Part shown: positions 16,345 through 28,444 of the stretch, in pieces
How the letters are laid out: every line of letters begins with the position of its first letter
Numbering within the stretch: the stretch's first letter is position 1
DNA from: Chitinophagaceae bacterium
GTDB taxonomy: Bacteria > Bacteroidota > Bacteroidia > Chitinophagales > Chitinophagaceae
DNA length: 34,920 bases
Assembly: GCA_025933775.1 (NCBI GenBank)
Contig: JAICZH010000026.1
Span: forward strand, 1-34,920
Direction of reading: 5' to 3'
The notes under the pieces: model-generated
Told to the model about the DNA's origin: nothing
The model's database searches: none
Seen by the model: the letters and a program-made list of their open reading frames with translations, nothing else
Translations under genes and position numbers: made by a program

Positions 16345-17577
16345 ATGCAAAATGATGAAGTCCATTCTTCTGATAAAAAAGCCAGTCATTTTCAAAAATA
16401 TTTCCAATATGCATTATCCATTATTTCTTCTTATAAAGGAAATGAACCGTTTCATCTTTTTATAAAAAAATATTTTTCTTTCAATAAAAAACATGGCTCA
16501 AGAGACAGAAAAATAATCACTGCTTTGTGTTATAATTATTTTCGTGTAGGCATCACCGTTAGTAATATAAACTTTGAAGAAAATTTTTTATTATCAACTT
16601 TTCTTTGTGAAATAAAACCTTCTCCGATGCTGGAATATTATAAACCCGGGTGGAATTCTTTAATTACCCAGCCACTGAATGATAAACTTAAACTGGTTGA
16701 AAAAGAATTTGACATTCAAAAAATATTCCCATTCGGTGATGAGCTAAGTAATGAAATAAACTTGCAAAAATTCAGCATTTCATTTTTAATTCAGCCAAAA
16801 TTATTTATAAGAATAAGGCCGGAGTATATAAATTCTGTTTTGGCGAAAATAAAAAAAATCGGTTTTTATTTTGAAAGATTGGGTGAAAATTGCGTTGCAT
16901 TTTCAAATAATGAAAAAGTAAACACCATTCTTGAAATTGATAAAGAGGCGGTGATACAGGATTATAATTCTCAACAAGTCGGCGATTTCATTGCATCGTA
17001 CCTGCCTGTCCGGCAGGCAGGCATCGTACATCACACATCAAACATTTCCATTTGGGATTGCTGCTCCGGAAGCGGCGGCAAGTCAATTCTCGCTTATGAT
17101 ATTTTAAAAAATGTACAACTAACGGTAACGGATATACGAAAAAATATTCTTTCAAACTTGAAAAAGCGTTTCGCTAAAGCAAGTATTAAAAATTATCATT
17201 CTTTTGTTGCAGATATTTCAGATCTTTCTTCGATAAAGAAAATTAAAGAGCGGCCTGATTTAATTATTGCAGATGTTCCATGCTCGGGCTCAGGCACCTG
17301 GGCAAGAACGCCTGAACGATTATTTTTTTTTAATAAAAATGAAATAGAAAAATTTGCTTCTCTGCAAAAAAAGATAATTGAAAATATTGTTCCGGTTTTA
17401 AAGAAGAATGGTTATTTATTATACATTACCTGTTCTGTTTTTAAAAAAGAAAATGAAGAAAATGCTTTTTTCATTCAACAAAATTTACAATTGAATTTAA
17501 TTGAAATGAAATATTTAAAAGGTTATGAAATGCAGGCTGATACTTTATTTGCAGCATTATTTAAAAAATTTAAATAG
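16345..17577 (+). CDS. RsmB/RsmF-like 16S rRNA m5C methyltransferase
   Basis: The 410-residue protein has an N-terminal NusB-like helical region and a Rossmann methyltransferase domain (about 205-405). The SAM-binding motif is WDCCSGSGGKS (237-247). The two catalytic cysteines of the NOL1/NOP2/sun family are C313 (ADVPCSGSG) and C363 (YITCSVF). It methylates cytosine-5 in rRNA; which cytosine is not decidable here. Residues LPVRQAG (220-226), just before SAM motif I, are encoded by a GC-rich palindrome flanked by a 9-bp direct repeat and look like an inserted element. Two motif copies (16543, 17119) lie in the gene. It ends one base before the convergent subtilase gene. Confidence 0.88.
   Translation: MQNDEVHSSDKKASHFQKYFQYALSIISSYKGNEPFHLFIKKYFSFNKKHGSRDRKIITALCYNYFRVGITVSNINFEENFLLSTFLCEIKPSPMLEYYKPGWNSLITQPLNDKLKLVEKEFDIQKIFPFGDELSNEINLQKFSISFLIQPKLFIRIRPEYINSVLAKIKKIGFYFERLGENCVAFSNNEKVNTILEIDKEAVIQDYNSQQVGDFIASYLPVRQAGIVHHTSNISIWDCCSGSGGKSILAYDILKNVQLTVTDIRKNILSNLKKRFAKASIKNYHSFVADISDLSSIKKIKERPDLIIADVPCSGSGTWARTPERLFFFNKNEIEKFASLQKKIIENIVPVLKKNGYLLYITCSVFKKENEENAFFIQQNLQLNLIEMKYLKGYEMQADTLFAALFKKFK
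16543..16562 (+). repeat. Dispersed 20-bp motif, copy 5
   Basis: Reads CGTGTAGGCATCACCGTTAG in the rRNA methyltransferase gene (RVGITVS). It shares 16 contiguous bases with the copy at 32774. See the findings. Confidence 0.45.
16993..17029. mobile_element. Short GC-rich palindrome with flanking 9-bp direct repeat, inside the methyltransferase gene
   Basis: CCTGCCTG (17001-17008) and CAGGCAGG (17014-17021) form an 8-bp stem with loop TCCGG. GCATCGTAC occurs exactly on both sides (16993-17001 and 17021-17029), like a target-site duplication. The repeat-to-repeat distance is 28 bp, which is not a multiple of three. A simple insertion would therefore have shifted the frame, yet the frame is intact. 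The element encodes LPVRQAG in a surface-loop position. Confidence 0.5.
17119..17138 (-). repeat. Dispersed 20-bp motif, copy 6
   Basis: The minus strand reads CGTATATCCGTTACCGTTAG within the methyltransferase gene (coding LTVTDIR on the plus strand). Only one position departs from the degenerate consensus. See the findings. Confidence 0.5.
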
Positions 17578-23161: not shown

Positions 23162-23170
23162 TTATATTTT

Positions 23171-23190
23171 CGTGTATGCGTTACCGTTAT
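23171..23190 (+). repeat. Dispersed 20-bp motif, copy 7 (intergenic)
   Basis: Reads CGTGTATGCGTTACCGTTAT in the 25-bp gap between the convergent TPM and ribD genes, overlapping the ribD stop codon. It is a best-match copy. See the findings. Confidence 0.55.
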
Positions 23191-28382: not shown

Positions 28383-28412
28383 TTTAATTGCATAAAGATT
28401 TTAGAATATAAA

Positions 28413-28444
28413 ATTAGCTAATTAGCTAATTAGCTGATTAGCTA
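28413..28444. repeat. Four tandem copies of ATTAGCTA
   Basis: The octamer ATTAGCTA repeats at 28413, 28421, 28429 (ending G) and 28437. The array is highly palindromic (TAATTAGCTAATTA), can form several registers of AT hairpin, and lies between the YkgJ and pepT genes. Confidence 0.65.

Follow-up and report, generated by a model that had tools for sequence, protein, structure and literature searches.

How a 21-bp palindrome came to lie in frame within a gene for an RsmB/RsmF-type 16S rRNA methyltransferase, and whether the repeats on either side of it record its arrival, are the questions raised by a stretch of 34,920 nucleotides from a Chitinophagaceae bacterium (contig JAICZH010000026.1 of assembly GCA_025933775.1; the whole stretch is called the window below, and is contig C192 of genome G000, 3.25 Mb at 98% completeness). 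A preliminary description, made from the sequence of the window, had proposed a tiny palindrome that moved into a tolerated loop and left a 9-bp flanking duplication. The palindrome is present as it was given (CCTGCCTG-TCCGG-CAGGCAGG) and is exactly seven codons long. The peptide LPVRQAG that it encodes within the open reading frame of 410 amino acids does stand shortly upstream of the SAM-binding motif (WDCCSGSGG), as had been read. The host protein is similar to solved Fmu/RsmB-like proteins (best E value 2.4e-18). As DNA, the 21-mer folds at -8.8 kcal/mol into an 8-bp stem with a 5-nt loop, a stability reached by none of 200 shuffled sequences, and one stem pair is lost in its common A variant. 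The core pattern is found a single time in the window, where 0.13 occurrences are expected. The window also encodes SusD-like and Por-secretion-tail proteins, as fits a member of the Bacteroidota, gives one tRNA and nothing else at the gathering thresholds of Rfam, and includes an 8-bp unit (AATTAGCT) in three exact copies at 28412-28435. The coordinates of the features are collected in Table 1.

Table 1. Features of the window in and around the methyltransferase gene, with three places of the over-represented word; positions count from the first nucleotide of the window.
Feature	Position	Strand	Remarks
Host gene, RsmB/RsmF-type 16S rRNA methyltransferase domain (PF01189)	16345-17577	+	
ACTAACGGTRAYGNNTAYACGA word	16542-16563	-	
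9-mer GCATCGTAC, left of palindrome	16993-17001		overlaps the palindrome by one base
Heptamer CATCGTA, left of palindrome	16994-17000	+	in tandem heptamer array
21-bp palindromic element, 8-bp arms and 5-nt loop (8+5+8)	17001-17021	.	orientation here CCTGCCTGTCCGGCAGGCAGG
Seven inserted codons	17002-17022	+	LPVRQAG
9-mer GCATCGTAC, right of palindrome	17021-17029		overlaps the palindrome by one base
Heptamer CATCGTA, right of palindrome	17022-17028	+	
Further degenerate heptamers CATCACA, CATCAAA, CATTTCC	17029-17049	+	CATCACA 17029-17035; CATCAAA 17036-17042
ACTAACGGTRAYGNNTAYACGA word	17118-17139	+	in host gene
ACTAACGGTRAYGNNTAYACGA word	23169-23186	-	

A search of the whole genome, which the preliminary description had suggested, establishes that the palindrome is not unique: there are 16 copies at no more than one mismatch, and a seventeenth place has three mismatches (the reversed pattern, as a control, gives no match at up to three mismatches). 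All 16 copies are inside frames of 201 or more amino acids without a stop, two pairs sharing a frame so that the distinct frames number 14. Within the genus, 11 of 20 genomes (this one included) have a match at up to two mismatches, with 40 distinct places in G015, 15 in G010, nine in G009 and one or two in the other carriers; at the same threshold no match is found in the other nine genomes, five of which are at least 98% complete. The exact 21-mer is found in 16 of 395 genomes drawn from the phylum (again including this one), and its control in none of them. In the GTDB genome collection, either of the two variants of CCTGCCTRCCGGACAGGCAGG occurs exactly in at least 117 stretches, compared with about 0.2 expected (by the authors' own arithmetic, with uniform bases); because this collection was scanned for exact matches, the identity across phyla is partly by construction. 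Among the matches listed, the record titles name Bacteroidota, Patescibacteria groups, Omnitrophota, Nitrospirae and Dehalococcoidia, and further Elusimicrobia, Ignavibacteriales, Thermodesulfobacteriota and proteobacteria; some of these phylum labels may be binning errors, since many carriers are MAGs. In viral contigs 25 stretches have the 21-mer, and it is also found in records not labelled MAG (Arenibacter P308M17, Pleomorphovibrio marinus, Salegentibacter R32 and Muricauda NBRC 101325). Its presence in the latter and at sites filled in two species makes an assembly artefact unlikely.

Related palindromes of about 20 bp (CCTGCCTGCCGGYAGGCAGG type) are found in open frames of other genes of G000 (C90 near 18833, L065; C107 near 18525, L068, in MurC; C101 near 3795, L066), and are likely to be a sister family of the 21-mer. 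A literature search for the peptides and the related 20-bp palindrome (the 21-mer itself not being among the strings) gave no match, and among the titles and abstract beginnings retrieved none described the 21-bp element.

The length of the unit can be taken from sites that lack it. The loop of the window gene that contains the palindrome has 25 residues, compared with 16-19 in 16 orthologues from the genus (18 in nine of them); among 13 orthologues from outside the genus, the loop has 13-22 residues in ten, and 25, 27 and 33 unrelated residues in three. The palindrome itself is absent from this loop in all 29 orthologues. The same loop of a distant orthologue (L060, in G033) has a degenerate palindrome-like stretch coding LPAGKA, which is either a second, decayed and perhaps independent insertion or a product of chance; G033 has two exact 21-mer copies elsewhere in its genome. 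At the insertion site of LepA, 38 residues in this genome correspond to 31 in 18 of 19 orthologues from the genus and to 36 in the nineteenth (G010), due to a different short palindrome. That palindrome, of the CCGATAGCTATCGG type, adds five residues to the very loop that the 21-mer occupies here (L402), and is over-represented in G010. PheS is exactly seven residues shorter in 11 of 16 alignable orthologues, six residues shorter in two and eight in another two, the last having an unrelated loop of equal length (three of the 19 orthologues could not be aligned at the insertion site).

The DNA around 46 copies of G015 and G009 was set against that of G010 (1.08 Mb and further loci), in which both flanks were found for 14. 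Five of these 14 sites (L075, L079, L084, L094, L124) are exactly 21 bp longer than in G010, with no duplication and no loss; four differ by 20, 24, 27 and 42 bp (L120, L121, L103 and L125, respectively), and five are filled in both species, two of them being decayed or degenerate in G010. A unit of 21 bp is gained at clean sites, without target duplication or loss. The empty site that was to be sought by aligning orthologues is thereby found, as a gain of seven residues in the window gene, LepA and PheS and as a gain of 21 bp at the five clean DNA sites, and no aligned orthologue shows LPVRQAG, which the preliminary description had considered might be shared with distant relatives. It had also been puzzled by an offset of 28 bp between the flanking repeats, not a multiple of three; the offset is real, but the compensating indel considered for it is unneeded, the net gain being 21 bp. 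The proposal that a very small palindrome, apparently mobile, had settled in a loop able to tolerate it has fared well: the palindrome is multi-copy and patchy in the sister species, and the loops of 28 of the 29 orthologues have no palindrome-like stretch. To judge from these comparisons, the palindrome does appear to move.

The repeats that flank the window copy are heptameric. Minus the 21 bp, the sequence here reads CATCGTA CATCGTA CATCACA CATCAAA CATTTCC, a row of degenerate heptamers, and in the same loop orthologues without the palindrome have, for example, CTTCAGC CTTCAGC CTTAAGC (L035), CTACAAA CCACAAA CTACAAA (L040) or CAGCTAT CAGCTAT CAGGTAT CAGCTAT (L061). Among the 30 loop sequences (this one included), a lag of seven is best or tied in 18 and the other 12 have no preference; the mean best score is 10.7 at lag 7, compared with 7.2-8.0 at lags 5, 6, 8, 9 and 10. 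Different tandem heptamers are present in different species in the same protein loop (16994-17049 here; L035, L037, L039, L040, L058 and L061), as if heptamer arrays turned over in place. Because palindrome-free orthologues carry other heptamer arrays, the flanking repeat is an array and not an insertion scar, and the orthologues suggest that the array is older than the palindrome.

A similar preference is evident among other copies. Of 205 copies, 10 lie directly between exact direct repeats of 7 bp (0.08 expected from shuffling); one abutting direct repeat has length 6 and none has length 4, 5 or 8-14. Periodicity of lag 7 (at least 18 matches) is found in 25 of the 205 flanks, compared with 9, 7, 5, 3 and 1 for lags 4, 5, 6, 8 and 9, respectively (longer lags having slightly fewer comparisons), although exact-heptamer arrays of at least three units number only seven in 1.08 Mb of G010. 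The last base before the junction is a purine (A or G) in 85% of copies and T in 1%, the first base after it a pyrimidine (C or T) in 81% and A in 5%, and 149 of 228 copies have a purine/pyrimidine (R/Y) junction. A perfect stem of at least 7 spans the junction in 14 of 228 copies, compared with 1.2 in shuffles (maximum 3), and in five of these 14 the host is the palindrome itself or a close relative. The junction word is common to an independent copy in 57 of 228 cases, compared with 7.3 when right halves were permuted (maximum 17 in 20 permutations). One such junction, GGGAGA/TTTAGAGG (the slash marks the point of insertion), is shared by the genus of the window, a Mucilaginibacter MAG and a viral contig; others consist of heptamers, CATTCCCG..CGGGAATC loops and the palindrome inside itself. 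Self-nested copies L238, L243 and L259 use one common junction, whereas L267 and a further L259 copy are nested at other points. The preferred targets are purine/pyrimidine steps, tandem heptamers, the loops of other hairpins, own copies of the palindrome and one fixed position of over-represented words.

The over-represented word of this genome, ACTAACGGTRAYGNNTAYACGA, is 22 bp long and has 284 matches at two mismatches (control, one); a shorter form has 238 matches at one mismatch, compared with 0-21 in 19 sister genomes (controls 0-5). It occurs on both strands, in genic and intergenic DNA, and singly in the stretches read. At the copy downstream of the palindrome in the methyltransferase gene (17118-17139), the aligned part of the orthologues is ungapped, so that this copy seems to have arisen by substitution in place, in the manner of uptake sequences or HIP1. 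The word itself looks like a species-specific uptake-sequence-like or HIP1-like sequence. Nine of the 16 palindromes of this genome lie at one position of the word, ACTAA/CGGT, and share ACTAA-palindrome-CGGTRAYG..TAYACG. A longer mobile element that includes these shared flanks is rejected: the net gain in LepA is only 21 bp and the flanking word is found about 284 times on its own, so that the flanks are taken as a target word and not as part of the unit.

Frames of at least 150 amino acids contain 150 of the 228 distinct exact copies. In 82 of these 150 the reading is LPxGQAG, against an expectation of one sixth (p about 4e-26, with no correction for sites that are shared by descent), and the preference for a frame that gives LP[TA]GQAG suggests that the peptide is under selection. 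All six frames of the G variant are free of stop codons, as are five of the six of the A variant; since 21 is a multiple of three and the frames are nearly stop-free, such insertions can survive in genes. Outside the genus 66 of 119 copies are coding, fewer than at random positions (0.85), which indicates that insertion in genes is tolerated rather than preferred; within the genus the coding copies (44 of 48, compared with 0.85 at random) are not fewer. In an NCBIfam scan of ten hand-chosen carrier proteins, nine reach the equivalog cut-off (LepA, TopA, RecN, PheT, RlmN, MnmA, RadA, LpxB and MurC, of which the MurC carrier has a related 20-bp variant instead of the 21-mer), and a pyruvate dehydrogenase E1-like protein is below the NCBIfam cut-offs.

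Several other origins of the palindrome were weighed. The one-frame bias could be explained by a conserved protein motif (LPxGQAG) with similar codons, or by a DNA word that arises in place such as an uptake sequence, but copies read in all six frames and lying outside long frames, host proteins that are unrelated to each other, and a net gain of length leave such an explanation with practically no probability. A classical mini-transposon with a target-site duplication of 7 or 9 bp, the suggestion of the preliminary description, is very improbable. The 9 bp do not hold as an insertion scar, given five empty sites without duplication and a repeat that belongs to the heptamer array; the abutting exact 7-bp repeats, although far above chance, are likewise part of heptamer arrays, which palindrome-free orthologues of the window gene also possess; and a gain of 28 bp would shift the frame, although one filled site (L103) is indeed 27 bp longer than its relative. 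An enzyme-free spread, in which replication forks take up short hairpin-forming single strands through template switching or short illegitimate recombination, is rather unlikely. It is consistent with targets that are prone to slippage or to hairpins (heptamer arrays, hairpin loops and the palindrome itself) and with the lack of target duplication, but the precise 21-bp ends and the purine/pyrimidine junction argue for defined cleavage, and the presence of one exact sequence in many phyla argues for recognition.

HUH/Y1 enzymes leave no target duplication, and matches to the Y1 or RAYT type (PF01797) number 68 in the genus, where all 20 genomes have them with or without the palindrome, and 14 in five further palindrome carriers, all of which have them; their presence does not track the copy number of the palindrome. 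Of 30 genus loci examined among the 68 (including two of three in G000, two of five in G015, two of ten in G009 and both in G010), one has the palindrome no farther than about 1.5 kb from the PF01797 match, as do two of the 14 loci in the five other carriers, and none of these 30 and 14 loci has the palindrome on both sides of the gene. In the nearest case (L481, in G104), the palindrome is inside a different repeat, CAACCCC..GGGGTTG. These repeats flank a Y1 transposase gene on both sides at L481, one of them interrupted by the palindrome, and together with the gene they constitute a candidate REP-transposase unit. The terminal GTAG/CGTC tag is adjacent in 11 of 228 copies, near chance (7 by the authors' own arithmetic), and within 8 nt in 23. 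The classic REP/RAYT arrangement is rejected, the tag being near chance among the 228 copies and no transposase gene at the loci examined being flanked by the palindrome. More generally, it is unlikely that the palindrome is an element of the REP/REPIN type which a RAYT (REP-associated Y1 tyrosine transposase) moves: the absence of the tag beyond chance, the rarity of the palindrome near PF01797 and the independence of copy number from PF01797 all stand against it, although size and hairpin are like those of REPs, every carrier tested has PF01797 matches, and passages of a published account describe REPs inside ORFs and place CGTC-type REPs on record for Bacteroidetes (PMC3733652).

The palindrome of the window is probably one copy of a mobile repeat, 21 bp long and non-autonomous, that forms a hairpin and is of the kind known as small dispersed repeats (SDRs). 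Counted against this are four of nine empty sites that are not exactly 21 bp and three distant orthologues of the window gene with loops as long or longer. In the window, the unit would have entered between two heptamers of the array that encodes a variable loop before the SAM-binding motif, adding LPVRQAG in frame to the rRNA methyltransferase. A strand of the palindrome would fold into a hairpin as single-stranded DNA and would be pasted in by a putative enzyme acting in trans, either one of the HUH/Y1 type, which causes no duplication, or some other nuclease of single strands; the lack of target duplication, the R/Y junction and the hairpin and heptamer targets point to such a mechanism. 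A Y1 enzyme acting from elsewhere in the genome may be the mover. A bolder proposal is held tentatively, its chances falling a little short of even: that one exact 21-bp hairpin, among the smallest known, is an active mobile unit across phyla, which one and the same widely conserved machinery, recognising hairpins and over-represented words, inserts at R/Y junctions with no duplication of the target, and that this unit extends essential proteins by peptides of seven residues.

The SDRs of Nostoc and its relatives, as set out by Elhai and colleagues in 2008, are reportedly hairpins of 21-27 nt, embedded in tandem heptamers and self-nested, and their hairpin structure is said to be supported by compensatory changes. 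By analogy, the 21-bp element closely resembles these cyanobacterial repeats, which appear to be its closest known kind: 21 bp at five clean empty sites is within their range of lengths, strong lag-7 periodicity is present in 25 of 205 flanks, and copies are nested in copies (L238, L243, L259, L267). Nine of the 16 copies in this genome occupy an exact position in an over-represented word, comparable to SDR5, which is described in part of one account as inserted precisely in HIP1 (PMC4390886), although the word here is not HIP1. Passages of other published accounts present SDRs as 'some 20 bp long' and dispersed repeats that 'might be mobile' (PMC2884548), class them among short interspersed palindromic sequences with an origin to be elucidated (PMC3116915), and report heptameric repeats as over-represented in bacteria and studied in Xanthomonas and Nostoc (PMC4692102). 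Unlike cyanobacterial SDRs, the 21-mer extends over many phyla (to judge from record titles, Bacteroidota and candidate phyla for the most part), and many of its copies are in frame inside housekeeping protein genes; the likeness is one of description.

GC clusters and double-hairpin elements of mitochondrial DNA are GC-rich mini-palindromes of AT-rich genomes, found also in coding genes. They are like the 21-mer, by description, as GC-rich mini-palindromes, but are organellar. The Rickettsia palindromic elements (RPEs) resemble the 21-mer in lying in frame within protein genes that are unrelated to each other, but have a length of about 150 bp according to part of a published account (PMC10969869), compared with 21 bp here, and the 21-mer crosses phyla. 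REP/REPIN elements are also short hairpins, some of them within ORFs; the 21-mer differs in having no GTAG/CGTC tag and in not flanking the transposase genes examined. A transposon or MITE with a target-site duplication of constant length is unlike the five empty sites, which have no duplication.

Among DNA elements that appear to move, this one of 21 bp is one of the smallest. If this is true, a sequence of 21 bp moves between genes and between lineages and edits housekeeping proteins in frame, and the spread of such tiny repeats becomes testable outside the cyanobacteria, by virtue of records from cultured carriers, defined target rules and precise empty sites at which gain and loss can be scored. 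For the proteins of these genomes, LPxGQAG or LPVRQAG can be an insertion scar and not a motif.
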